Source: Nepenthes gracilis (taxonomy: Eukaryota; Streptophyta; Magnoliopsida; Caryophyllales; Nepenthaceae). Taken from it: a DNA stretch of 64,000 nt. Numbering within the stretch: the first letter of the stretch is position 1; the number at the start of each line of letters is the position of its first letter. The stretch lies in contig BSYO01000016.1 in the NCBI GenBank assembly GCA_033239525.1, positions 5,095,045 through 5,159,044 of the forward strand. Direction: 5' to 3'. Below, one piece after another: positions 29,538 through 62,060 of this stretch. A program made the position numbers and the translations under genes. The notes below the pieces were generated by a model, which was given only the letters and a program-made list of their open reading frames with translations, did no database searches and had not been told where the DNA came from.

Positions 29538-31655
29538 TGTAACGTACCATATTTTTAACCGAAAATTCGGTAAAGTTTCGACTGTAATATGAACGTCAGA
29601 CTATACAAACCACCTGTACAACAATCCTGTACAACACATAAAAATCTATCCAAACAAATTTCAACATCCAAACAAACACACCTAAACAACACATAGGATC
29701 CAAATGCAATATTATATTTGTGGCTCTAACGTTGCGTCTTCGGACACAACGTTGGGGAGAGAGATGCCACTAGGTAGTATAATACAAATCATAATTATTT
29801 GTAGAAACCTATATATCCATCACAATGCAGCGGAAACTTAACCATTGGTACAACAATAATATACAAACATATCTCCATCTCATAATATACAAAATTTACT
29901 CCATAGGCACAAAATTACAAAGTCTAAGTCCAAAAGTTATCTTCCAAGGTCAGCAGCCTAGTCAACTTCTAATCCTCTACCCCACCTCATCGGGTTTAAA
30001 TTCATATTCATCCAAAGGGAGAAAGTAGTAAGGGTGAGTTAAATACTCAATAAGTGCAATATAATCAAGGATAATAAATAATATATATGTAAAATAAGCA
30101 ATAGAATGAGAAAAGAGCATAATGTAAATACACGAATGTAAAGCATGACTAAATTTATTTTTCAGAATACAATTATCTTTTTCATTTTACTTTTAATTTC
30201 TTTAGATTCCAAAATATGTAGAAATTTTCATTATTTTTTTGAACAAGAACTAGTGAGCCTCACCAGCTAACGGAGCAGTTAAATCAAGGAAAGGATCATA
30301 TTACTTCACATGATCTAAGACTTACCCAAGTATCTTGAATTTAACATCCCGTGATGGACGATATACCTATAATCTCGGATATATTGGGCCAATAGTCCAT
30401 ATTCTTATACCACCATAGCATACCCCGCAGCCTAGGGCAATTCCTCGATTCATCACTGTATTATCTTAAGGTATGTCAGAAAATATTACTATCTAAAATA
30501 TAAATCTGTGATCTAGGTTTCATAATTACTTATTCTTAAGGGATGGTCTACCAAATCCAAATACAAAGTTCTTACTCCCTAGAGAACAGGTCATCAAATA
30601 TATCAAATTGTGAAGTCCCTTCGTAAACTTTACATATCTTATAAAATTCTTATATACAAATACAGATAATTATTTCTCATGATTTAAATCTTCACATGAC
30701 TTTAAACAAATGTATAATTTAACATGATGGTTGGAAGAATCATAAATTCCTTACAATATTGGATCAAACATGACCTTAGGGCTTCTAGACGAATAATCCT
30801 TCACAAATTGTTAATAATAATATTTTTCAAAATATACAATTAAGTATATGCAATTGTATATAATTTAGATGTCAATTAAAAAAATAAAATCATACAAAAA
30901 TATCAAAGTGATTCAGGTGAAACGGTGCAGCACAGATGAATAATGTCAGCGTAGGTATTGGGGTCTCATATGTGCAAAATCGGACACCCAATCAGTAAAT
31001 ATCTATGACTAAGTCATGGTTTTCATAATCTCATACTAAAACATGTATAAATTCGAAATAATTGGTCAAGTAAGGTCTGGGCGCGAGTTAGGGTTTCAAA
31101 GCGCGAAAGAACCGCATAAAATCATCAAAACGGACAACAAACACCAAATAAATCATGTAAGGGATATAGGTTCTGCAAAATTTAAGTTTTAGGTAGGTAT
31201 CAGAATGAAAATACTCGAAAGATACGAACGAAAATTAAAACGAGAGAACGAAAAGAGTATGAGTGTACTTATCTCAACTCAATCTATTACTTTTCTAACT
31301 AGTTTTAAACCGGATTTAAACTTGAGAGCCTCGATCTCCCCTCTCTCTCTTCCCCCTCTCTCTCACTCTCCTCTCTTTTCTTCCTGAAACCCCTTCTTTC
31401 CCGATTTTGCTTCTTTCATTATTTTTTCTTCTTATTCTATTTTATATAAATATATATATATATATATATATAATTTTATTTTAAAACCCAAATCAATACT
31501 CGGGTGATAGTACGAGCACACTTTAGATGCTGGCCCAACTAATCCAAATATCCTTTAAAATTTTATAATATTTAATTATTTTATATCACACCCAAATAAT
31601 CCAAAATAATATTAAATTATCTTGAATTAATCGGATAAAGATTTGGGATATTATA
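29538..31655 (-). repeat. 3' LTR of the non-autonomous element
   Basis: On + it starts TGTAACGTACC and ends GGGATATTATA, where the canonical end would be TACA. It contains a CT-rich tract (about 31335-31385; GA-rich leader on the minus strand) and an (AT)n run (31446-31472) that recurs, longer and with ATT units, in the other LTR at 37153-37198. Confidence 0.85.
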
Positions 31656-31681
31656 TTCTCTCCCACTTATAAAAATTTCGT
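31656..31681 (-). other. Polypurine tract
   Basis: Minus strand: ATAAGTGGGAGAGAA immediately before the LTR start at 31655. It is preceded by GACGAAATTTTT, the wording usual in front of Del/Tekay LTRs. Confidence 0.7.
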
Positions 31682-32897
31682 CTTCAAAATTTAATGAACA
31701 TCGAAATTCAACAATTGAAAAAAATCCTTTCAAATTCCTACTTACGTTCCAATGTTACAACCTTAAAGAAATAATCATTCCTAGAAAACCTTAACCAAAT
31801 GAATTATCCTAATTTTCAATATTTGATATTTATATTTAAATTTAGGTTGGAACCTTATTATAAGATAAATTTCTAATTTTTCATAAAGGCTAATTCGTTC
31901 TCATACTTATTTCCTCAACCATTGATACAAGGGAAATTTCATGATAATCCATCAAATTCAGAGGTAACCCAAATTATCGGCTATTTTCTCAACTTAATTC
32001 AAAATATCGAACGAACTAATAAATTTCTATTTCAATTCTTCCTAAGCCTCGAAAATGATCGATCACTTGAATCCTCGATCTTATTCTGAAACTTCTAGGC
32101 TATGGGCCACACGCTATCGCTGTGCTATTCTGATTGACCATTTACTTGCGCAGTAAAGATCTTCTTACAACTCAAATTTAATTGATCCATATTGGACACC
32201 TAGGTTACGTGACAGCTATAGGCCTAAGAAAAATTTCAAAGATATCAACACAACTAAGGTAAGGTTCTTATTCCTTAGGCTGCGATCAACTTAGGAAATA
32301 TAACTGAAATAATCACCCAAAAATTTAAGCGATATCATTGGATTCACTAACACTTAGAATCGATTACAAGTTATTCTGACCTCGAGCCAACGATTCTACC
32401 TTATCTGTCTCACTTTCCATGCTATTCATACATCCATAATCCTAATTATTGGATCAAGATCAATTTAAGATAATCCTCAAAATATTCTTCTTCAATATCC
32501 CTTCTCCCGGCCCTGACCTGGACTAGATTCTCCAAGACTTTTAAGTCTCACCTTCCCATTGATCAGATTCAGATACTCGGCCTCTTTAACACATGGTTGA
32601 CTATCTTCACGTGTCGACCTTCACTAGTTGACATGATCAGGTACTATCATTCTTTCTGAAACAAAAATAATATGGGTTGGTTCATAATTTAAATACTAAC
32701 TAGAATAGTATAAGTTAGACAACCAAATTTACCCACTAATTTTTAACTTAGTTTTAGCATAAGTCATACAAACTAGTACAACTAAAACCACCCGATCTAT
32801 CTTAATTATCCTATATTTTCATCTACTTATTTAATCGATCTTGCTCTAATCTAAGCTTTCACTTACGATTCAAATCAAATCTAAAGTATCATTTTCT
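31682..32897 (-). other. Non-coding interior of the element
   Basis: No reading frame over 60 codons on the sense strand and no retroviral protein motif. It includes a moderately GC-rich patch at 32380-32650. Confidence 0.6.
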
Positions 32898-32910
32898 CTC
32901 TAATACCAAC
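32898..32910 (-). other. Primer-binding site, initiator tRNA-Met type
   Basis: Minus strand: LTR end, then GT, then TGGTATTAGAGA, matching 10 of 12 bases of the plant initiator-Met primer site. Confidence 0.75.
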
Positions 32911-35900
32911 TATAATGTACCGTATTTTTAATCAAAAAATCGACAGAATTTTGATTGTAATACGGACGTCAGACTATATAAACTACCTGTATAATAAGCC
33001 TGTACAACACAAACAAATCTATCCAAACAAATTCCAACATCCAGACAAACGCAACCTAAACAACACACACAGGATGCAGATGTCACATTATATTTATGGC
33101 TCCAAGTCGCATCTTCGACACAACGTCAGGCGAAAAAATGCCGACTAGTTATCATAATACAAACCATAATTACCTGCAAAAGCTTATACATCCATTATGA
33201 TGTAGTGAAAACTAAACCATTGGTACAACAATAATATACAAGCACATCTCCATCTCATAACATACAAAATTTGCTTCGTAGGCACAAAATTACAAAATCT
33301 AAGTCCACAAGTCATCTTCTGAGATCAGCAGCCTAACTAACTTCTAATCTTCTACCCCACCTCATTAGATCTAAACTCGTACTCATCTGAAAAGAGAAAG
33401 TAATAATGATGAGCCAAATACTCAGTAAGTACAATATAATTAAGAACAATAAACAATATATATGCAAAATAAGTAAAAGAATGAGATAAGAGTATAATAT
33501 AAATGTATGAACGTAAAACATGATTAAATTCACTTTTCGGAATACTATTATTTTTTTCATTTTACTTCTAATTCCTTTAGGTTCAAAAACATGCAAAAAT
33601 CTCCATTATCTTTTCGGACTAGAATTAGTGGGCCTCATCAACTAATAGAATAGTCAAATCGAGGAAAAGATCATGTTACTCCACATGATCTAAGGCCGAT
33701 CCACGTACCTTAAATTTATCGTCTCGTGGTGGACGGTATACCTATAATCTCGGATATATTGAACCAATAGTCCATATTCTTATACCACCATAGTATACCC
33801 CGGGGCCCAGGGCAATTTCTCAATTCACTACTATAATATCCTAGGATATATTAGGGAATACTACTCTCTAAAATATAAATCAGTAATCCAAGTTTTATAA
33901 TTACTTATTCTTAAGGGATGGTCCACCAAATTTAAATATAAAATTCTCACTCCTTAAAGAACAAGCCATCAAATATATCAAATTATAGAGTCCCCTCATA
34001 AACTTTACATATCTTGTAAAATTCTCATATACAAATACCGATAATCATTTCTCATGGTTTAGGTCTTCATATGACTTCAAACATATGTATTATTTAACAT
34101 GATACTTAGAAGAATCAGAAATTCCTTACCATATCGGGTCAAACATGATTTTAAGACTTTTGAACAAATAATCCTTCACAAATTGTTAATAATAATATTT
34201 TTCGGAATATACAATTAAATATATAAAATTATACATAATTTAGATATCAATTAAATAAAATGTGTGACGGAACTGATTTTTTTTTGTATTACGCCAGCGA
34301 CCTCCCGGGATGGACACCAAGATGTTGGTGGTCTGGTCCGGGCTGTCATGCCTACCAATGACAGGATCACAGATACCATCTAGAGCCCACATACGATATC
34401 CATAAAATGTGTAACGGAAGCCAATCTGTTAACCTGTCGAAGCGTTTACATTCATATCTATAAGACTTATTCTTTTACAGATATAATCATAGAAGTCCAA
34501 TTACAATAATACATATATTTCAATCGGATCATTACAACAAAACTGTTTCTTCCGAGCAACTCCAAAATATACTTTTCAGTCCTTAGAATCATTCAGACGG
34601 AACTCTAGTCACTCCATCTAATTAGGCATGAGCTCTATAGTTTCATCTGGAGGAAAAAAAAATTGAAAACAGTGAGTCAGAACTCAATAAGGTACATGCA
34701 AATTTTCCGTAAAACGTTTATGCTGTAAGGCGGATAGAGATTCATACGTAGCATGAATATTGTAAAACAACAGTTGACCGGACAAACAACATGAACAACG
34801 GTTAATTCGGACAAATGCATAAACAGCATAAATTTTATAAAATAACAGTTGACCGGACGAACAACATGAACAACGGTTAATCTGGACAAATATATAAACA
34901 GCATGAATTTTATAAAATAACAGTTGACCGGACAGACACATAAATAGTATGGATATTATAAAATAACAGTTGATCGGACAATATATGTAAGGAAGTCAGG
35001 CAGGCCAGAGTAGTCAAATTTTAAAAATCGAAACAGAAAAACGGAGTCTGTCATATTATAAAAATTTCTTTTCTCTTTTTTTTATCGGTAAAAGATATCG
35101 CTAGCGGATGAGACAATAATCGAGGATAAATTGTACACATTTCCTCACAATTACGACAATACCTCCTTATACAAAGCCCCGAAGACGGCTCTCGCTTCCT
35201 TCTTGTACAAAGCCCCGATGACGGCTCTCACTTTCCTCATTGTACAAAGCCCCAAGGACGGTTTCCTTTTGTTATCATCAATTACCACTATAATATTCTA
35301 AGGCATGTCGAAGAACTTTATCTCCTAATGTTAAAGTCCGATCTTATTCATCTTTCATAAGGCCATTCCACTTTTTTTCTTTAATTCACATTCCGGTCGG
35401 GTACAAAACTTTCAGTCATCACAATACAAAATCGATTGCAAATTTTATTTTTCTGATTCCTGTCAAGTATAAAGACTTTTAGTTGACATAAAATCGATTT
35501 TCAATCCATAAATCTCGTTCCAATCAATAATTATGACTCAAAGCCGGTTTACTTTTTCATTTTTATACAATTCAAGTTTAATCAGGAGTTGAGCAGAAAA
35601 TGAAAAGCAGAAAGTAAGAAGCATGAATTTACCATGAAATTATATTTTTAGTCCAATTTTAAAGCAAGCTCGACGTCAAAGATGCAGCTTATCAAGTAGG
35701 AATTAAAACGGTGAGTCGATTATACCATATGCTGAAGTGTTAGGACACTTGTAATTTTTCTTAAAGGCCGGGACTTGAAAGTAGAGGCAAAATCTGAGTT
35801 TTAAAGGAAATGTACGCTTGCATTAAAGTATTACTTCAATTTAAGCTTGAAAAATGGGGGTACACTTGCCTGACTGTTAACCGCCCACTCTAACTGACGT

Positions 35901-40240: not shown

Positions 40241-40245
40241 TAATT

Positions 40246-41079
40246 TGTTGCGTCCGGTGAATCTGGCCGTACATCGAATAGAGTACGAGCAGCTCTTTAA
40301 AGCGAACGGACGGGTAGATTGGAGCAACACAAAATAAGTAGAATTCGAATAGAGAGAGAAAAGTACGGGGACAGTGGGGGAAGCGCCTGTTTACGTGGAA
40401 AACTCCTTAATCTGACGATGGGTGAAAAACCACGGTAGCGGATGAGCAGTCCGAGAAATCTCACTATAATAAAGAGAAGATACAATGGATGCCTGGGAAA
40501 CTTTCACGTTCTCAGGGTATTACAGCGTAAGGAAGATAAACTCCTCTCTTTTCTCTCCTCTCGTTGCCTTTGTTTTTCTCTGGAGGGTTCTTGCTCGAGT
40601 GTGAGCAGATGGATCCAGAATCAAGATCCTTTTTCAGTTGCTAAAATAGGGTATTTATAGGGAACGTGATGCCGTAAGGGAGGTGACACGTAGCGCTGGT
40701 GCACGTAGCGCTGGCGTGTCAGGGTTGCCTGCCACCAGCGCCACTACTGTGGGTACGGCTGTGACAGGGACACCTGTCACAGTTTGCTGATACAGCGCTC
40801 AGAGGCGCATGGCTTGCAGGTATAGCGCGTCAGAAGCCGTTGGTCGCTCGTGGCAGCATGCGCCGCGCAAACTATCTGAGCTGGCGTCTGGGTCATTTTG
40901 GCCTTTCTGGTGGTCCCCGTCCTCAAATGGGTCTTAGTGTCCGTTCGGGTTGCTAGGCGCTCGAAAACGAGTTAGCCATTTGGATTTGATTGGGCTTGTG
41001 GGCCTTTTGGTCCAGCCTTCTCGCGTGACTCTTTGGGCCTGCCTCTGCGATTTTGGGCCTTGGGTTCCAGGACCCATCA
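40246..41079 (-). repeat. 3' LTR of the Tat element (834 bp)
   Basis: On + TGTTGCGTCCGG to GACCCATCA; the partner is 49695-50513. It is about 15 bp longer than the partner because a short ACGTAGCGCTGGTGC unit is duplicated near 40690-40716. The TATA box is on the minus strand at about 40647-40656. Confidence 0.93.
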
Positions 41080-41091
41080 CGAGCCCCTCAT
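41080..41091 (-). other. Polypurine tract of the Tat element
   Basis: Minus strand TGAGGGGCTCG immediately before the LTR start TGATGGGTCC. Confidence 0.7.
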
Positions 41092-41487
41092 GTCAAGCGG
41101 TTCGAGGATTCAGCCGTTTGACATGCCTTGCAAACATCTTCTTGCCGTGATAGACCGCGGTCTTCGTCTTCTGCCGGCGCGAAAGATGTCCGAGGTCTTC
41201 TTGTGAACACGAAACCTATCTTTCGCCGCCGTTTCCCCTCCTTGTGGAGCATTGAATGCGATAGGCAATTGATGTGACGTCGCCTCGGGAAGCCCTAAGG
41301 CCTGCGCTTGCCCACTACGTATGGGGAGCTGACACGTGGAATGGTCATGATGATGGCGCCTTTTCACTTGTTTGAAAATTTCTTTAAATCCTTCGTCGCA
41401 TTCTCATTCATTCCTCGCGTTTTCTTCTTCCTTCCCTTGGCGTTCTTCGAGAATCTTCACGGCACTTTGTTTTCCTTGCTCACTGCC
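41092..41487 (+). promoter_or_regulatory. Putative promoter and leader of the antisense gene
   Basis: Contains GTGACGTCGCC at about 41276 and GACACGTGGAA at about 41332: a TGACGTC (C-box/CRE-like) and an ACACGTGG (G-box/ABRE-like) element, 150-210 bp before the ATG. A CT-rich leader follows at 41425-41480. The other two copies of this gene also have ACGT cores upstream. Function inferred only. Confidence 0.4.
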
Positions 41488-43345
41488 ATGGCTCCCGGTG
41501 TTAAAGATATTGCCTCTTTCCTTTCTTCTCAAGATCTCGAGCAGATCAGGGCAAAATACAGCATCCCGGTGTCTGATTCGATGGTGGTTCTAGGAGCCGT
41601 AGAGAGGGCACGTAGTCCGCCGAGCGGATACATTGCCGTATACGAGGTTCACCTCAAAGGTGGACTTCATTTCCCTGTTCCCACCGAGCTCCGCCGCCTG
41701 ATGAAGGAGTTGGCCGTTCCGCTCGCGAGGCTTCAGCCCAACGCCATCAGGTACTTGGTTTCTTTATGTGTCTTCGAGCGCTGCCATAGCAAGACTCTTG
41801 AGGCGGTTATGGTGAAGATCATGTTTCGCTTCGATCATAACCTTGACTGGATCGCCATGACCCCCCGCCCCGAGTTCGCTGAGATGAGCGGTGGGAACCC
41901 TGATTCCACCAAAAGGTGGAAGGACAGGTTCTTCTTCCTTAAGGTGGCTGAGGACTGGGAGCTCTCCCCCGTGTGGGGAAATGTCGCGAGCAAATATGGC
42001 TCCGATATCACTGACGAGGAGAGGGAGGCAGCCAGGGAGGTCACGGACTTAGTGCTGGCGAACCTAGGCGGCTTCAACATGGGGAAGAAGAACATCTGGC
42101 TGTCCCGTGAAAAGCTGGCGGAAGCCGAGTGGGTGGTGTCATCCGGTGATTCTGCCATTGCTGCTTCGAAGAAGAAGAAGAATCTGAGGAAAAGGGAGGG
42201 TCCTCTTGTGATTCAGGAGCCCTCCGAGCGGCCTCCGAAGAGCCCGCGGATTGAGGTCCCTGAGGATCCACCGAGCGTTGCTGGTGAGTCTTCCTCAGAG
42301 GATGACCTCATCATAGCCCCCATGGTTAAGAAGGCTGCGGGGCCAGCTTCTGGTCCTTCTGTGGAGTCCGGGGTCGCGCAGCACCTTCCTCTGGTATTGA
42401 GGCCCGTCCTGAGGCCTCTGCCGTCTCCATGGGTCATCCTTCTGACGACCCTACAGCTTTTGATGCCTCGGAGGAGGCAACCTTGGACGAGGTCGTAGAG
42501 CCTCATGAGATGGAGGCCGTCGCCGCTGTTACTGCTGGGGATATCTTTGACCTTCTTAGCGGCGATGAGGCTGTGGTCGCGGTCTTGGAGATCCCGGCCG
42601 TTGCTGATGTCTCGGAGGTAGCGGAGCCCCCCATCCCTGAAGGTCCTTCCTCTGAGGCTGCTCTTGATGCTTCTGCGGCGCCCGCTGAGTGCCCACTCGT
42701 GCCCGAGGTCTCAAGGGAGATTGCCCCCATTCAGGAGCCTGTCGTTTTTCAGGTACTTTGCTACCTTTCTCTTTGTCTCACTTTCTGTTGACTGCTTCTA
42801 AGTGGCTTTGGTTCTTTTTGCAGCTCCAGGATCTGATTAGTGGCCTTAGCCGACTGGTGGGCGAAATCGCTCGGTCTCGTCGGGAGGCGGAGTCTTCGAG
42901 GGCCGCCCAAGAAGAGATCCAGCGGCTTCGCGCGGCGCTTGCCTCATCTGAGGAAGCCCTGAGGCTCTTAGAGGTTCGATATGGTTTCCTGATGGAACGA
43001 AACCTTCAGCTGGAGGAGACGTAAAGGACCTCGGTGAAGATTGCTGACATGGCCCCCGTGCTGGAGGCCAAGTTTTGGGACGACATCCATCTATGCCGCC
43101 GGCTGATACGGGTCCTGTATCCACGATTTCCTACGGTTGTGTTTGATCCGTGTAACTCGAGCGCCGTGTGCCCTCAGGATGTGTACGGTCTTCGAGACAG
43201 GCCATTTCCTGGGTCCTCGGGTCCAAGCTCCTCAGCGGGTCCTCGCACATCAGACCAACCGGGAACTTCGAGCCACGGGGAGGATCCCTCGTCTCTAGGA
43301 GATCCATCTGAAGCCGTTCTACCTCAGGGCCCCTGCGAGGGCTAG
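41488..43345 (+). pseudogene. Tat antisense gene, copy B: gypsy-type transposon domain, acidic linker, coiled coil, with intron
   Basis: Opposite in strand to gag-pol. The start ATG at 41488 gives MAPGVKD, aligned with MAPQSVAK and MVPSRVSE in the other copies; an in-frame ATG at 41308 is less likely. Residues about 40-180 are the Transposase_28-like core: SGYIAVYEVHLK, LVSLCVF, NPDSTKRWKDRFFF. A basic patch (KKKKNLRKR, about 42165-42195) could be a nuclear signal. Then a Pro/Ser/Glu/Ala-rich acidic linker to 42752. A one-base frameshift lies near 42360-42395. A GT-AG intron at 42753-42823 joins the linker in frame to a coiled-coil stretch (LQDLISGLSRL onward, to about 43020) with one TAA at 43022-43024, after which the frame runs on to 43345. 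Function unknown; a role in element regulation is only a guess. Confidence 0.8.
42753..42823 (+). other. Predicted 71-bp intron of the antisense gene
   Basis: Donor CAG/GTACTT at 42753; acceptor TTCTTTTTGCAG ending at 42823. Without splicing the frame ends at a TGA 36 bp later (42789-42791). With splicing it enters the coiled coil in frame. T-rich throughout. In the copy on the minus strand at 60 kb, the coiled coil is likewise separated from the linker by a short non-coding stretch. Confidence 0.65.
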
Positions 43346-43482
43346 ACTTCGTTTTCCCCTTTTGATTATTGTATTGTATTTTTATGAAATAAAAGGAGAT
43401 CCTCGAGTTTATCGCAAGTGCCTCTCTCTTTTTTTTTTTTTACTTTTGTTACCAGCCGAATTTTGTTATGACCTCAAGGGCC

Positions 43483-44095
43483 CGACCTCTGGGGTCGCTC
43501 GGTCGCAGCAGAATTTTTATCACCTGACCACTGGGGTCCGACCGATGGGGCCGCTCGGGTTGGCGCCCAAGTTTTGTTGCCTGACCACTGGGATCCGACC
43601 GCTGGGGTCACTCGGGTTAGCGCCCAAGTTTTGTTGCCTGACCACTAGGGTCCGACCGCTGGGGTTGCTCGGGTTGGCGCCCAAGTTTTATTTCCAGACC
43701 ACTGGGGTCCGACCGCTGGGGCCGCTCGGGTTGGCGCCCAAGTTTTGTTGCCTGACCACTGGGGTCCGACCGCTGGGGCCGCTCGGGTTGGCGCCCAAGT
43801 TTTGTTGCCTGACCACTGGGGTCCGACCGCTGGGGCCGCTCGGGTTGGCGCCCAAGTTTTGTTGCCTGACCACTGGGGTCCGACCTGGGCCGCTCGAGTT
43901 AGCGCCTAAGTTTTGTTGTTGCGACCACTTTGGGGGTCCGACCGCTGGGGCCGCTCGGGTTGGCGCCCAAGTTTTGTTGCCTGACCACTGGGGTCCGACC
44001 GCTGGGGCCGCTCGGGTTGGTGCCCAAGTTTTGTTACTTGACCACTGGGGTCCGACCGCTGGGGTCGCTCGGGTTGGCGCCCAAGTTTTGTTTGT
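43483..44095. repeat. Tandem array, 57-bp unit, about 10-11 copies
   Basis: The unit begins CTGACCACTGGGGTCCGACC and includes CTCGGGTTGGCGCCCAAG. Copies start at 43752, 43809 and 43866 with exact 57-bp spacing. One unit near 43885 is shortened and one near 43915 carries an extra few bases. The array lies between the end of pol and the antisense gene, where Tat elements often have hypervariable repeats. Confidence 0.95.
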
Positions 44096-44115
44096 TGGAG
44101 ATGACCCGCCTTTCA

Positions 44116-45346
44116 CTAGTAGTATTTCTTTAGGTGAGCGGCGTTCAAGGTTCGGGGTATCAGCTTGCCCTCTTGGGTGCGTAGCTTATACGCTCCTCCT
44201 CAAAGGATAGCCGAGACCAAAGACGGCCCTTCCCAATTTGGTGAGAGCTTGTTCCTTCCAGCTATTTTTCCCGTGGCTTCCACGCTTCTTAGTATGAGAT
44301 CCCCGACCTCGAATTGTCACACCTTCACCTTCTTGTTGTAATAGCGGGCCACTCGTCGTTGGTAGGCCGCTACCCTAAGTCTCGCCTGGTCGCGAACTTC
44401 CTCGAGGGCATCGAGGCTTTCTCGGAGCCTCTGGCTGTTATCGGTTGCACTAAAGCACCCAACCTGGGGGCTGGTGAGGCATACTTCTATTGGGATGACA
44501 GCTTCGACCCCATAGCAAAGGTTGAAAGGGGTCTCCCTTGTGGGTTCTCGGGGCGTTGTCCTGCATGACCAGAGGACTGAGGGCAATTCATGTACCCATG
44601 AGCCCTCAGATGATTCCAGCTTGGTTTTTAGCCCATGTAGGATTGTGCAGTTTGTCACTTCCACCTGCCCCGTTGGCCTGCGGGTACGCCACTGACGTGT
44701 GCACCAGGTTGATCCTCAGGCTTGCGCAGTACTTAGTGAACCGTTTTCCAGTGAATTGCGTCCCTTTGTCAGTCACGATGCACTCGGGCACTCCAAACCT
44801 GCACACAATGTTCTGCCGGAGGAACTCCGTCGCATTTTGTTCTGTTATTCTGGCCCGCGGTACTGGTTCCACCCATTTGGTGAAGTAGTCTATTCCCACA
44901 ATCAGGAATTTCCTTTGTCCGGGAGCGAGAGGAAATGGTCCGAGGATGTCAAACCCCCATTGGGCGAACGGCCATGGGGATTGCAGCGCCCGGAGATCCG
45001 TGTGAGGGCGATGGCTCATATTGCTGTGAAGTTGGCAACTCTCGCATTTGCGCACGAAATCCATGGCGTCATATTTCATAGTCGGCCAGTAGTACCCTTA
45101 CCTTATAAGCTTAAATGCTAGGTTCTTTCCTCCGACATGGGATCCGCATATTCTGAGACGCACCTCTTGCAGGGCGTATTCGGCTTCCTCTGGAGTGAGG
45201 CACCTCAGGTAAGGGGCCGAGAAGCCCCGTCGATACAGCCGGCCGTCCATGATTGTGTACCAACCCGCTGTTTTTCTTATCTTCTTGGCCTCGCTCGGGT
45301 CCTCGGGCAGCGAGCCATCAGACAAAAACTTCAGGTAGGGAGTCAT
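44116..45346 (-). pseudogene. Integrase of the Tat element, broken
   Basis: HHCC zinc domain: H in CGSHVGGK (about 45140), then CESCQLHS (about 45030-45050). Catalytic triad: Asp in GFDILGPF (about 44950), Asp in CIVTDKGTQF (about 44785), Glu just after NGQVE (about 44663). The last is separated by a frameshift: four G on the sense strand (44668-44671) where three keep frame. The C-terminal part, FEVGDLILRSVEAT then KLSPNWEGP and HLKKYY, runs to the stop at 44116-44118, with two TGA codons in place of Arg. Would insert the cDNA; Tat integrases lack a chromodomain and none is seen. Confidence 0.88.
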
Positions 45347-46276
45347 CTAGGTGCTCCCGTCTGCGACCTGCATCACCTCCCGCTCGGGGTCTTCAATGCT
45401 GGACCTGCTCAGGATTTCTCGCATCCACCTGGCGCACTGTTCAGGATCTCCCGAAGCCGCGGCTCGCTCAAGCGTGTCAACTTGGGCGTTTTTCTCCCCC
45501 GGGATGTGGATGAACTCGGCTGTCTTGAACCCCATGATCATGTCCTTGACCTCTGAAAGGTACTTGGACAGCTGCTCGTTGTTGACGTCGAAACTTCTGC
45601 GGACCTAGTTAATGACCAACTCGGAGTCACTATAGATGACCAGCTCTTTGGCCGAGCATTCCTTGGCAAGTCAGAGTCCAGCTAGCAAGGCCTCGTACTC
45701 TGCGACGTTGTTTGTGGCTGAGAACCCCAACGTTAGCGAGTACTTTATCTCCATCCCCTGAGGTGTGCGCAACACAATCCCTGCTCCGCAGCCGTCCTTC
45801 ATAGAGGAGCCGTCCACGTGCAAGGTCCAAGTGGAGGCTCTGCTGAGCTCGTCCGTGGTAGTCCGGTCCTCGTCGCAAGTGGGCGGTGCCATCGTCTCAA
45901 CGAGAAAGTCCGCGAGCCCCTGTCCCTTTTAGGTTGGTTTCGGACGGAACTCTATGTCAAATTCCCCCAATTCAATGGCTCACTTGATCAGCCGCCCGGA
46001 GATCTCGGGTTTCTGTAAAATGGCCCTTAAAGGCTGATCGGTCAGGACTATTACCTTGTGCGCCTGGAAGTATGGCCTAAGCTTCCTCGCAGAATAGACC
46101 AACGCCAAGGCCACCCTCTCTGTTAGGGGATACCTGGTCTCAGCGCCCGCGAGAGTCTTGCTGACGTAATACATGGGCTGCTGCTTGCCATGCTGCTCTG
46201 GTACTAATACCGAGCTCAGCGCTGCGTCGGACATGGAGAGGTACAAGTATAGCTCCTCGCCCTGCTGAGGAGAAGC
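45347..46276 (-). pseudogene. RNase H (gypsy type) plus second archaeal-type RNase H of the Tat element
   Basis: The first domain (46276-45980) has LYLSMSDAALSSVL, YYVSKTL, LVYSARKLRPYF and LTDQPL. The second (about 45870-45610) has LHVDGSSMKDG, a late AEYEAL and YSDSEL: Asp, Glu and Asp catalytic residues are all present. The duplicated RNase H of archaeal type is diagnostic for Tat. In-frame stops occur at about 45980, 45930, 45671, 45608 and 45347. The frame is continuous with RT. It would remove the genomic RNA and process the primers. Confidence 0.85.
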
Positions 46277-47335
46277 TTAGAGGGGCGGACTCGAGAGGTA
46301 GCTCTTGAGTCCTTGGAATGCCTCCTCGCAGTCATCACTCCACTGGAAATCCCGGGATTTTGCTCCTCTTAAGGCATTGAAGAATGGCAGGTGCTTCTCA
46401 GCCGACTTGGCTAGGAAACGGGAGATGGCGGCCACTCGCCCAGTAAGCTGCTGAACCTCTTTCACCGTTTGCGGAGACCGCATGTCCAGGATCGCTTGGA
46501 TCTTTTCTGGGTTTGCCTCGGTTCCTCGGTGTGATACGATATAGCCCAAGAATTTTCCGGAGGCAACACCGAAAGTGCACTTACTGGGGTTGAGTTTCAT
46601 CCCATGGGTTCTGAGCACATGGAAGGTCTCAGCCAAGTCCCTCACGTGGTCGCCGCTCATCCTGCTCTTGACGAGCATGTCGTCAACGTATACCTCCACG
46701 TTTCTACCCATCTGGTCTTTGAACATCTTATTCACGAGCCGTTGATAAGTCGCTCCTGCGTTCTTGAGACCAAAGGGCATTACCTTGTAACAGTATGTCC
46801 TTTGGTCCGTCATGAATGACGTGCGCTCCTTGTCCTCAGGGCTCATTTTGATCTGGTTGTTCCCGAAGTATGTATCCATGAAACTTAAGAGTTCATGGCC
46901 GGACGTCGAGTCTACAAGTTGGTCGATCCTGGGCAATGGGAAGCTGTTTTTGGGGCACGCCTTGTTGAGGTCGGTGAAGTCCACACACATCCTCCACTTC
47001 CCATTGCTCTTTTTTACCATGATAACGTTGGCCAACCAGTTCGGGTACTGAACCTCTCAGACAAATCCAGCGTCTAGGAGTTTCTTGACCTCCTCGCAGA
47101 TGGCCATCAACTTCTCTGTCGAATAGTTTCTGCGCTTCTGTCTGACCGGCTTATGCCGAGGATCGACGCCCAACTTGTGGATGATGACCTCGGGCGATAT
47201 CCCGGGCATGTCACTGGAGGACCATGCGAACACGTCCGAGTTCTCTCGTAGAAAACTGACGAGTTGGTCTCTTACTGTCTCTGAGAGTGAGCTCCCTATT
47301 TGGACATACTTCTCCTGATCCGCGGGATCCAATGG
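46277..47335 (-). pseudogene. pol: Reverse transcriptase of the Tat element
   Basis: N-terminal part at 47332-47057 (VFAWSSSDMPGI, HKLGVDP, KPVRQKRRNY), then TGA in place of Arg at about 47057-47059, then the catalytic part 47053-46277. There CVDFTDLNKACPK, SFMDTYFGNNQIKM, VMPFGLKNAGATYQRLV and the intact active site YVDDMLVKS (about 46680) are seen, then LGYIVSHRG. The first Asp is in FMDTY, normally FMDAY. Only a couple of nonsense codons mark it as dead. It continues in frame into RNase H after TAA at 46277-46279. Confidence 0.9.
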
Positions 47336-47467
47336 GACTCGGACTACAGGTTCTCCTGACTAAGCGTGCGGAAGCGTTACAGCGAGATCCAACGGGACTC
47401 GGACGAGTGTTGCCTCGTCCCTGAGGTCGAGGTCTTCCATGGGCTGCGGAAGCGTTACTTGCTCGGT

Positions 47468-47988
47468 CTACGCCAAGTAACACATCTGCCCGGTTGACTG
47501 GTCCTCGAGGACCTCTCCTACCCCACACGGGGTGGGGAACTTCATCTTGAGATGTGGGATAGAGATTACTGCGTTGAACGTGGCCAAGCAAGGCCGTCCG
47601 AGTATCGCATTATAGACCGAGGGCAGGTCCACAACGAGGAAGGTTAGGACCTTCGATGCTGTCCTCGGATACGTTCCCAGGGTCACCTCCAACTGGATGA
47701 TACCCTGGACGGGCACTGGCTCGTTGTCCAGTCCGTAGAGTGGCCCTTCCGGTGCTTTCATTCGATTCTTCTTAAGCCCTAATTTGAAGAAAGTATCAAG
47801 ATACAACAAATTGCGAGAGCTTCCATTATCAACAAATACTCGTTTCATCTGGTAGTCATTTGCTCCATCTGAAACGAGTATGGTTACAACCAAGGGGTCG
47901 GAGTGAGGAGAAGTTACATGGTCTAAGTCCCTACTGCTAAAGCAGATAACATCGTCTTCACTCCCAAGCCCCATCCTCGGCCTCATCG
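47468..47988 (-). pseudogene. Aspartic protease of the Tat element
   Basis: DNGSS active-site motif within VFVDNGSSRNLLYL (about 47800-47840), the Tat form of the retropepsin D-S/T-G; then LTFLVVDLPSVYNAILGRP, the second hallmark. In a different frame from gag (shift at about 47985-48000) but in the same frame as RT. The spacer 47467-47336 contains a short direct repeat of an LVRVPLD-coding segment and two stops. Confidence 0.85.
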
Positions 47989-49612
47989 CCGCTGCAAGCT
48001 CACGCCCGTCTCCCCAGCCGGTCGGCTGGAGATCATGTTCACGACCCCCGCAGCCACTCGGTTCTTGGGGGGCTCTGCGTCTCCACCATCCTTGGGCCCT
48101 GAGGCTTGTCCTGGCCTCTGAAGGAAACGGCTGAGGTGTCCTCTTCGGATAAGCTCTTCAATCTCCCTCTGCAGGGTCCAGCAGTCCTCCGTGCTGTGAC
48201 CCCCGGAGCGGTGAAAGTTACAATATTTCGATTGGTTCCCACCGTCCGGGTTCTTCAGTTGCTTGGGCCACTTCAGGAATTTTTCTCTCTGGATCTGCAT
48301 GAGGACATTGGTGCGGGAGTCGTTCAGCGGCGTGAGATGGATAGGTCGCGGCTCTCTCCGGGAGCTCTGCTCGGCCTTATGGTGTTTTTTTAACGTCTGG
48401 GGACTATCACTTTTTCCTTCCACGGCCTTCTGCTGAGGGTGCTCGTCCCTCTCAGGCCTTTTGGCGTCGTTGGCCTCTTCGGCCGCGATGTAAGCTCTGG
48501 CCACAGCCTCAGCCTCTATGAAGGTCTGCGGGCCTTTGTGGATGAGGCGCTTAAAGAAAGCACCCCCTTCGAGGGCCAAGAGGAAGGCGTTCAGCTTTAC
48601 CTCGTCGGTTAACCTTGGGATCTGCCTGGCCTCCGCTGCAAACCGTGCCAGGAATCCCCTTAAGCTCTCCCTGGCCCCTTGCTTGACTCGAGTGAGGTGC
48701 CAAGGTTGTTTCTCCACTCTTCTGCTTGAGGCAAATTGGGACAGAAAAGCCGTCGCCAGGTCTCCAAAATCACGGATAGAGTCCGCGGGCATTCCGTAAA
48801 ACCATATTCGTGCATCTCCCTTTAGTGTCAGAGGGAAGCACTGACACATGATTGTCTCGTCTAGGCCCTAGAGGTTCAGGTGCTCCCTGAAATGATTAAG
48901 GTGGTCCATGGGATCACCGCTGCCGTCATACAACTCCAGGTTGGGCATCTTGAACTTTGGGGGGAGCATCCTCGTCCTAATCTCCGTGGAAAACGGAAAT
49001 TGGAGTGCGTTACTCCTCCTCCGCTGCTCTCACGCAGCATCAGATTCCATCCTCTTTCCGGTCTGGCCTCCACTCGAGGTGGGGCAGCAATCCTTCTCTC
49101 GTTTAGGTAGTGCCTTAACTCGTAAGGCTCCTGAACTGCACGGCGCTCTGGGACCGTGCGGGCTCCTCTTGGGAGAGCATCTCGGGGAACCGCCTCTTGT
49201 TCGTCGTGGTTGCGGCGGTTCCGTTGGGTCTCAGAATGGCGCCTCTCGGGGCTTTCTCGTTGGACCCGAGGACCTGGTTGGTCCTCGACCCTTCGTGGTG
49301 CTCTGCTGCTGGAGGCCACCTGGGTCCTCGGGTGTTCTCGTTGACTAGGAGGTTTTTCGCGGCGACTGCCTCCTTCATTCCCGGCTTGTGGTGCCTCAGC
49401 CTGGGAGGCCCTGTCGGGAGCCGCCTGCTTAAGCTGGTCAATTTTGGAGCAGAGGGTAACGAATGCCTGCGACATGCCGGCTACCTGGGCGGCCAAGCCC
49501 CTCACCACCGGGTCGGGATGATCCTCCACCCCAGCACAGGGGTTAACTCCACCGCCTTGTGAGGCCACTTCTTTGGGGGCTACGCTCACCTGCGCCCTTG
49601 TGTTCACCATTT
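47983..49612 (-). pseudogene. gag: gag of the Tat element, broken
   Basis: The N-terminal part begins MVNTRAQ at 49610, just 68 bp inside the PBS, and is Arg/Glu/Pro-rich and disordered, as usual in Tat gag. A frameshift at about 49030-49060 and TAG at about 48868 separate it from the core at 48849-47983. The core shows LTLKGDARIWFYGMP, FLSQFASSRR and FIEAEAVARAYIAAEEAN. The nucleocapsid-type motif is CNFHRSGGHSTEDC, the C/H/H/C variant used by Tat elements. Would form particles and package RNA. Confidence 0.88.
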
Positions 49613-49677
49613 GGAGATTTGGGGCTTGCGTTGCTGTGTACTTGTGGAAAATGTGAAAAGCAGACTTTCAGTCGCTT

Positions 49678-49694
49678 CCCACAGACGGCGCCAA
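49678..49694 (-). other. Primer-binding site of the Tat element
   Basis: Minus strand: immediately after the LTR end, TTGGCGCCGTCTGTGGG. From the second base, its first nine bases (TGGCGCCGT) match the complement of the plant tRNA-Asp 3' end; the rest does not, so the tRNA assignment is tentative. Confidence 0.6.
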
Positions 49695-50513
49695 TGTTGC
49701 GTCCGGTGAATCTAGCCGTACGTCGAATAGAGTACGAGCAGCTCTTTAAAGTGCGCGGACGAGCAGATTGGAGCAACACAAAATAAGTAGAATTTGAATA
49801 GAGAGAGAAAAGTACGGGGACAGTGGGGGACGCGCCTGTTTACGTGGAAAACCCCTTAATCTAACGAGGGGTGAAAAACCACGGCAGCGGATGAGCAGTC
49901 CGAGAAATCTCACTATAATAAAGAGAAGATACAATGGATGCCTGGGAAACTTTCACGTTTTCAGGGTATTACAGCGTAAGGAAGATAAACTCCTCTCTTT
50001 TCTCTCATCTCGTTGCCTTTGTTTTTCTCTGGAGGGTTCTTGCTCGAGTGTGAGCAGATGGATCCAGAATCAAGATCCTTTTTCAGTTGCTAAAATAGGG
50101 TATTTATAAGGAACGTGATGCCATAAGGGAGGCGAGACGTGGCGCTGGCGTGTCAGGGTTGTCTGCCACTAGCGTCACTACTGTGGGTGCGGCTGTGACA
50201 GGGACACCTGTCACAGTCTGCTGATACGGCGCTCAGAGGCGCATGGCCTACAGGTACGGCGCGTCAGAAGCCGTTGGTCGCTCGTGGCAGCATGCGCTGC
50301 GCAAACTATCTGAGCTGGCGTTTGGGTCATTTTGGCCTTTCTGGTGGTCCCCGTCCTCAAATGGGTCTTAGTGTCCGTTCAGGTTGCCAAGCACTCGGAA
50401 ACGAGTTAGTCATTTGGATTTGATCGGACTTGTGGTCCTTTTGGTCCAGCCTTTTCGCGTGACTCTTTGGGCCTGCCTCTGCGATTTTAGGCCTTGGGTT
50501 CCCGGACCCATCA
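49695..50513 (-). repeat. 5' LTR of the Tat element (819 bp)
   Basis: Partner of 40246-41079. The TATA box (TATAAATACCC on the minus strand, about 50097-50107) drives transcription leftward through gag-pol. Confidence 0.93.
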
Positions 50514-50518
50514 TAATT

Positions 50519-61309: not shown

Positions 61310-62060
61310 CCTATTTAAACCAGTCCGGTAATTTTGGCAAGTCCTGGAACTTTCCATTTCGGTATTTTTGGCCAGTCCTAAAATTTTTCAATCTGGTTAT
61401 TTTGGCCGGTCCTGGAACTTTCACTCCGGTATTTTTGGCCAGTCCTAAAATTTTCCACTTTGGTAATTTTACCTAGTCCTAGAATTTTTACTTTGGTAAA
61501 TTTGGCCAGTTCTAGAATTTTTCACTTAGGTAATTTCACCGAGTCCTAGAATTTTTCACATTGGTAATTTCGGCTAGTTCTGAAAATTTCCACTTTGGTA
61601 ATTTTTGCCCAGTCCTGAAATTTTTCACTCCGACATTTTTGGTGACCTTGAAAAGTTTCCACTCCGACATTTTTGGCTATCCTGAAAATTTTTCATTCTA
61701 GCATTTTTGGCCATTCAGGAATTTTTCACTCCGATATTTTTGGCCATTTTGGAAAGTTTTCACTTTTGCATTTTTGGCCGTCTTGGAAATTTTCCACTCC
61801 GATATTTTTGACCATCATGAAAATTTTTCAAATCGGTAAATTTGGCTGAATCGGTAATTTTACCAGTCGGTAATTTTGGTTAAATCGGTAATTTTGCCAG
61901 CCAGTAATTTTAGCCTAACCGGTAATTTTTTAATTGGTAATTTTGACCAAACTAGTTTTTTCGCCTAGTAATTTTGGCCAAACTAGTAGTTTTGCTGCCC
62001 AGTAATTTTGGTCATACTGGTAATTTTGTCAGTTAGTAATTTTGGGCCAAACCGGTAGTT
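61310..62060. repeat. Imperfect minisatellite, ~38-40-bp unit
   Basis: About 18-20 degenerate units of the form 'CCGGTATTTTTGGCCAGTCCTGGAACTTTCCACT', decaying to shorter ~25-bp 'GGTAATTTTGGCC' units towards 62060. It lies between the antisense-gene promoter and the 3' LTR. Confidence 0.9.

Follow-up and report, generated by a model that had tools for sequence, protein, structure and literature searches.

Antisense open reading frames (ORFs) are known in plant long terminal repeat (LTR) retrotransposons, and ORF4 of Silene Retand, gene23 of maize Grande and rice RIRE2 have been reviewed together (PMC7264820). Gene23 is transcribed from an upstream promoter and gives a nuclear product (PMC7264820). 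Antisense TRP28 ORFs occur in 97% of the clusters of recently active Retand elements, and DNA binding was proposed for their proteins (PMC11963269). Plant LTR retrotransposons are generally without introns, with Ogre and EVADE among the exceptions (2025 review, PMC12786077). Here we describe an antisense gene with a putative conserved intron in a Tat/Retand-type element of the pitcher plant Nepenthes gracilis. The window, that is the whole stretch of DNA analysed, comprises 64,000 nucleotides (nt) of contig BSYO01000016.1 (positions 5,095,045 to 5,159,044). The gene lies on its plus strand at 41488–43345, between pol and the 3′ LTR of an element that runs on the minus strand.

The gene resembles the Retand TRP28 ORF in its antisense position between pol and the 3′ LTR and in its N-terminal TRP28-like domain. 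The coil-like stretch and the tandem array at this locus likewise have counterparts in Retand elements, for which Smc-type (coiled-coil) domains and tandem repeats are reported (PMC11963269). The differences are that the sequence of the window's family is strongly diverged and that a conserved, putative intron splits the gene. Ogre, which belongs to another Tat clade, likewise has an intron in a plant Tat-lineage retrotransposon (PMC6317226), but the Ogre intron is on the sense strand and that of the Nepenthes element is antisense. An earlier sequence-only reading of the window held that sense-strand introns are always lost at retrotransposition; this is too strong, Ogre being an exception. 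Its statement that antisense ORFs have been described in Tat/Retand elements agrees with their report, with TRP28, in PMC11963269.

HBZ of human T-cell leukemia virus type 1 (HTLV-1) clearly sets the precedent for splicing of an antisense gene in an LTR element. It is spliced at a conserved site (PMC12313066), and its product is a basic leucine zipper (bZIP) protein, described as nuclear (PMC11963269). HBZ is transcribed from the 3′ LTR (PMC12313066), whereas in the Nepenthes element promoter-like motifs lie between the LTR and the gene. The Nepenthes intron, of about 70–80 nt, parts the coil from the N domain. The word "intron" is absent (0 occurrences) from the main text of both PMC7264820 and PMC11963269. 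Among the top-ranked papers of the literature searches, none was seen to describe an intron in the antisense gene of a Retand element; the original Grande, Retand and extra-ORF papers could contain one. The antisense gene is of a known kind, and the conserved spliceosomal intron proposed here is the new part.

The sequence-only reading had placed a gene with an N-terminal domain, a linker and a coil at 41488–43345. The coordinates are right, and ATG, GT, AG and TAG could all be placed. The features of the gene in the window copy are as follows.

41488–42752, plus strand: exon 1, N-terminal domain and linker, starting with ATG at 41488; broken in the window copy.
41488–42132, plus strand: conserved N-terminal domain, a divergent relative of TRP28/PF04195 as judged from a ratio of nonsynonymous to synonymous divergence (dN/dS) of 0.17, PF04195 matches in relatives, and hhalign.
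42169–42195, plus strand: basic run KKKKNLRKR, a possible nuclear localisation signal.
42753–42823, plus strand: putative intron, 71 nt, phase 0, CAG^GTACTT...TTTTTGCAG^CTC, 49% T, from comparative alignment.
42788–42792, plus strand: branch-point-like TTGAC, beginning 36 nt before the intron end, from a YTRAY motif scan.
42824–43345, plus strand: exon 2, coiled-coil-like stretch and conserved cap LEAKFWD.IHLCRRL..VL.PRFPTVVFDP, from alignment and codon constraint.
43343–43345, plus strand: TAG, terminal stop of the antisense gene.

We consider this to be an antisense accessory gene of two exons, divided by a real, short (69–82 nt) phase-0 spliceosomal intron, with a probability of about 0.88. 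The evidence comes from copies of the gene within the window's own family and from divergent families of the same genome.

The window's family was sampled as the best 40 scored of 1948 candidates in the genome (752 Mb), and all 40, the window copy included, were aligned. The donor is GT in 40/40 of these copies and the acceptor is AG in 39/40 (AA in L027), and the length between them is 71 nt in every copy. Read in the phase of exon 1, the 71-nt stretch contains a stop in 38 of the 40. No indels were seen within the intron relative to L002. The T content of the intron is 0.49, against 0.22–0.24 in the exons (L001 and L002), and YTRAY is present in 38 of the 40 introns. In 12 copies an open exon 1 leads in frame into the donor. 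Both exons are open in six (L002, L007, L011, L017, L021 and L025), which have 421–427 plus 173 codons joined at a phase-0 junction. The remaining copies show stops, frameshifts, lost starts or truncations.

Diversity by codon position was calculated, with permutations, for all family copies but the truncated L039 and L040, which leaves 38 of the 40. For the first, second and third positions it is 0.083, 0.076 and 0.200 in the N domain, 0.119, 0.115 and 0.143 in the linker, 0.092, 0.085 and 0.153 in residues 1–104 of exon 2, 0.119, 0.172 and 0.250 in the exon-2 tail, and 0.207, 0.118 and 0.122 in the intron. The third-position excess was matched in 0, 98, 5 and 0 of 5000 permutations for the four coding parts in that order, and in 4059 of 5000 for the intron. 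The 15 pairs among the six fully open copies give dN/dS of 0.17 for the N domain, 0.26 for exon 2 residues 1–104 and 0.32 for the tail; the shifted plus-strand frames of these three parts give 0.85–1.43. The coding frame is under purifying selection in both exons, and codon constraint is absent between donor and acceptor. Relative to L002, the indels of 11 other copies with open exon 1 are multiples of three in 12/12 cases for exon 1 and 0/1 for exon 2; these copies were picked for their open frames, so the exon-1 count is partly circular.

Divergent relatives were collected with the query P0001, a Nepgr model, which gave 106 matches from 103 scored places; 20 were fetched, and later 40 more. 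The first 20 favoured open frames and included four with unusually long frames, taken to seek intronless members. The donor is GTA in 20/20 of them and the acceptor AG in 17/20, having been lost in L049, L056 and L057. The stretch measures 69–82 nt in 19 relatives, 13 of which hold a stop in the exon-1 phase, and across families the lengths are 69, 71, 76, 79, 80, 81 and 82 nt. In 19 of 20 loci (all but L057, which is shifted) the conserved peptide that closes exon 1 extends to the donor in phase 0, and the exon-2 match directly follows AG in all 14 loci whose match begins at residue 1. Mean T is 0.47 in the 19 introns versus 0.23 in the preceding 300 nt. YTRAY is found 15–45 nt before the end in 16 of the 19, where shuffles expect 3.6.

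Among the next 40 loci both ends were placeable in 36. GT was found in 35/36, AG in 34/38 placed acceptors, and both in 32; these counts include the unreliable weakest alignments, L091, L098, L099 and L100. When 10 family representatives, all taken from loci with an AG acceptor, are aligned, every GTA and AG column is invariant, and so are 5 of the 70 columns of the interior. The N-domain dS between L002 and six others is beyond saturation, with a median dN/dS of 0.09 over 21 pairs, and the median values for exon 2 between families are dN 0.25 and dS 0.99 (36 pairs). Splice signals are kept in place across element families of one genome. Alignment of many elements had been proposed as a check in the sequence-only reading, and it bore out the conservation of GT-AG ends, phase and position, families with saturated N-domain synonymous sites included.

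Lengths in all three classes modulo 3, together with GT and AG ends and phase-0 edges, are what a maintained spliceosomal intron predicts. The GT-AG ends, branch-point-like site, T-rich tract, position and phase are those of a U2-type intron, as far as sequence can tell. On comparative grounds, confidence in a maintained intron is high, and from these comparisons we infer splicing of the antisense transcript.

Several points weigh against this reading. The case for splicing rests on DNA comparisons, all within one genome, and the promoter motifs given below are consensus matches only. The window copy is broken, since a net frameshift in the linker makes the frame from the ATG at 41488 stop at 42498, and an in-frame TAA interrupts exon 2 at 43022–43024. 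Thus excision of 42753–42823, from which the sequence-only reading expected a restored frame, mends the frame locally and not over the whole gene. The linker is weakly constrained (dN/dS 0.63, with 0.69 and 0.83 in the shifted frames). Within the window's family, the divergence of the intron (K 0.17) is lower than the dS of 0.25–0.46 of the constrained parts, yet higher than their dN. Low ratios, 0.23–0.30, are also obtained for the N domain and exon 2 with one antiparallel frame, whose wobble positions coincide and in which the four copies examined have 4–8 stops. Over 37 other copies compared with L002, indels are multiples of three in only 43/77 cases in exon 1 and 4/18 in exon 2, as expected because these copies are largely decayed.

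Further such points come from the divergent loci. Only 12/19 of them have the donor in phase 0 when the phase is reckoned from the start codon, the other seven being out of phase because their exon-1 frames are shifted. Mean identity between families is 0.55 in the intron interior, 0.59 in the 60 columns before it and 0.55 in the 39 after it. The interior is as conserved as the flanking exon ends, so nucleotide identity alone leaves the borders unmarked. In L055 (1544–1612) the GT-AG ends are kept around a 69-nt stretch that is free of stops; as its length is a multiple of three, the frame is continuous and readable with or without splicing. With 73 residues of L055 exon 2 as query, none of 145 candidate annotated proteins matched at E ≤ 1. 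Of 20 more copies from the L057 family, 8 have the coil motif in the phase-0 frame and 3 in another frame, and in 9 it was not found.

Relatives whose frame runs through the stretch had been named beforehand as the case that would speak against an intron. L055 is half such a case, having a continuous frame but keeping GT-AG. L056 and L057 also run through, but with AG lost. An exonised intron was considered for these two in view of their long open frames and was rejected; both are read as decayed outliers, because the 20 further copies of the L057 family have GT in 20/20, AG in 19/20, a length of 80 nt in 15 and a stop in the stretch in 17. The two had entered the sample because long frames had been chosen. 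No contiguous intronless copy was found with a 120-nt junction query made for the window's family, which returned 69 matches, all of them half matches, with 40 of 280 candidate places scored. A retrocopy of the spliced transcript was thus not found, which neither supports nor excludes splicing.

Could the locus be explained with no intron at all, either by two separate antisense genes or by one gene translated across the gap through a programmed frameshift or stop bypass? Exon 1 begins with an ATG of its own, the unspliced frame reaches a stop after 12 more codons in 6/6 open copies, and L055 offers its continuous frame. However, exon-2 homology begins at the acceptor in each of the 14 loci that match from residue 1. 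Residues 1–104 of exon 2 are codon-constrained, yet in the six open copies no Met comes before codon 57 or 76, which would make exon 2 a poor gene by itself. A fixed frameshift cannot handle the seven gap lengths given above, which cover all modulo-3 classes, and the gaps are mostly flanked by GT and AG, T-rich inside and usually provided with a branch-point-like motif. We regard an intronless arrangement as very improbable.

The gene and its intron might instead be real but belong to a recently captured host gene rather than to a long-standing component of the element. Host genes commonly contain introns, and both PMC7264820 and PMC11963269 discuss transduction by LTR elements. Against this, several families with saturated synonymous sites in the N domain carry this gene and have the stretch in an identical position, and TRP28 ORFs in antisense are reported to be general in Retand elements (PMC11963269). 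Recent capture is disfavoured and has, in our estimate, only a slight chance of being right; an ancient capture of a host gene is possible. There is similarly little to recommend the view that the transcript matters and not the protein, with a spliced antisense RNA working via double-stranded RNA and the open frame incidental. Antisense retroelement transcripts can feed silencing (PMC7264820), but dN/dS is 0.17–0.32 in three of the four gene parts. The exon-1 indels also speak against it, with the partly circular 12/12 of the open-frame-selected set to be read beside the 43/77 of the 37 copies. An RNA role may exist alongside the protein.

The protein is, on sequence evidence, a divergent relative of the TRP28 (PF04195) proteins of Retand elements. 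Eight related exon-1 proteins were scanned for PF04195 at E ≤ 1, and seven gave a match, the best with E 3.4e-4; the first related member scored 13.5 bits, where the gathering cut-off is 26.2. The window protein itself gave no PF04195 match at E ≤ 1. With hhalign, P0005 of Ficus carica (PF04195) was aligned over 198 columns with a probability of 97.4%. Searches with exon-1 proteins, one of which scored 7997 candidates, yielded Nepenthes proteins, the Nepgr models being closest, and one Ficus protein. No relative was found in the viral contig collection. The linker is acidic, with a D+E fraction of 0.19–0.23 in the four proteins examined. The power of the heptad pattern observed in exon 2 was reached by 19–93 of 5000 shuffles in four copies. 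AlphaFold gave a mean pLDDT (its per-residue confidence score) of 40.9 for five sequences, and the prediction was not used. Separately, the second half of P0004 (Nepgr_011130), which is named PHD-type, resembles linker pieces of antisense genes. Its segment DPLVSKLQDLI resembles the join of exon 1 and exon 2, which may reflect an annotated splice or a host model containing element sequence; it was not used as evidence.

Signals that could serve transcription of the antisense gene lie on both sides of it.

41275–41389, plus strand: promoter-like stretch between the 3′ LTR and the ATG, by consensus matches.
41275–41281, plus strand: TGACGTC.
41333–41338, plus strand: CACGTG, which we take to be a G-box by its consensus.
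41383–41389, plus strand: TTTAAAT, presumably a TATA-like string, likewise by consensus.
43388–43393, plus strand: AATAAA, a hexamer like a poly(A) signal, 43 nt past the stop.

Of the 40 listed family copies, 35 have CACGTG and 38 a TATA-like string no more than 230 nt from the start, and 36 have AATAAA after the stop. These promoter-like and poly(A)-like strings are suggestive at most. As promoter-like motifs stand between the 3′ LTR and the gene and AATAAA stands just behind it, an internal promoter for the antisense gene is likely.

We propose that a promoter situated after the 3′ LTR and before the ATG drives transcription of the gene by RNA polymerase II, and that the transcript would be spliced in the nucleus and end past AATAAA. 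Translation would give a product of about 600 residues with a TRP28-like domain, the basic run, the acidic linker, the coiled coil and the cap motif. The protein would probably be nuclear, form oligomers through the coiled coil, and act on the element's own DNA or transcripts; a regulatory role for it is a guess. The intron could persist because genomic RNA is transcribed in the opposite direction, in which the stretch is CT...AC and would stay unspliced. This agrees with the sequence-only reading, in which an antisense intron escapes splicing on the gag-pol strand, for the stretch is without GT-AG ends there. A bolder and unlikely extension is that Retand elements in general possess this intron as an ancient, functional switch, by which the element sets its own activity via antisense splicing, in convergence with HBZ. 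Splicing would then add the coiled coil and cap to make an oligomeric nuclear protein. Retention would end translation 12 codons past the donor and leave an exon-1-only protein, comparable to the spliced and unspliced HBZ of HTLV-1.

The host element is complete and of Tat/Retand type, with the following parts.

40246–50513, minus strand: LTR retrotransposon, complete, from LTR comparison and TG...CA ends.
40246–41079, minus strand: 3′ LTR, from LTR comparison.
49695–50513, minus strand: 5′ LTR, from LTR comparison.
44606–48849, minus strand: gag-pol pieces overall, from domain matches.
44606–45079, minus strand: integrase (INT) piece.
45980–46246, minus strand: RNase H piece.
46277–47035, minus strand: reverse transcriptase (RT) piece.
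47983–48849, minus strand: gag piece.
43523–44092, no strand assigned: tandem array of 10 copies of a 57-nt unit, directly behind pol and between pol and the antisense gene.

The LTRs, together with gag and pol (RT, RNase H and INT), all stand on the minus strand, as in Retand. The LTR pair is 93.2% identical over 834 columns with 42 mismatches (Jukes-Cantor distance 0.052), and TAATT flanks the element on both sides (40241–40245 and 50514–50518). An additional RNase H (aRH) was sought in the interval between RNase H and integrase; the interval has 10 stop codons, and one ORF piece therein gave no Pfam match. From the end of the last ORF on the integrase side (44317) to 41079 is about 3.2 kb, which holds the antisense gene and the 57-nt array. 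The units of the array match at 90%, and it resembles tandem arrays described for Retand elements. Other repeats of the window lie outside the element. At 61318–61926 there are short related repeats with spacings of 33–35 nt and 67–68 nt, 61–81% alike to the reference copy. Below the element coordinates are a 300-nt direct-repeat pair at 30002–33676 (3375 apart, 80%) and a 75-nt triplet of direct repeats at 34740–34964.

In the Retand survey, the ORFs considered were 600 bp or longer (PMC11963269). Since surveys of this kind seek uninterrupted ORFs, a second exon could be missed. Study of antisense and spliced transcripts is called for in PMC7264820, and because junction reads are possible from antisense transcripts only, they offer a simple diagnostic. 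If true, the conserved antisense intron would be a different route for a retroelement to keep a spliced gene. It would also argue strongly that the antisense genes of Retand elements, puzzling as they are, are genuine and transcribed in the nucleus.
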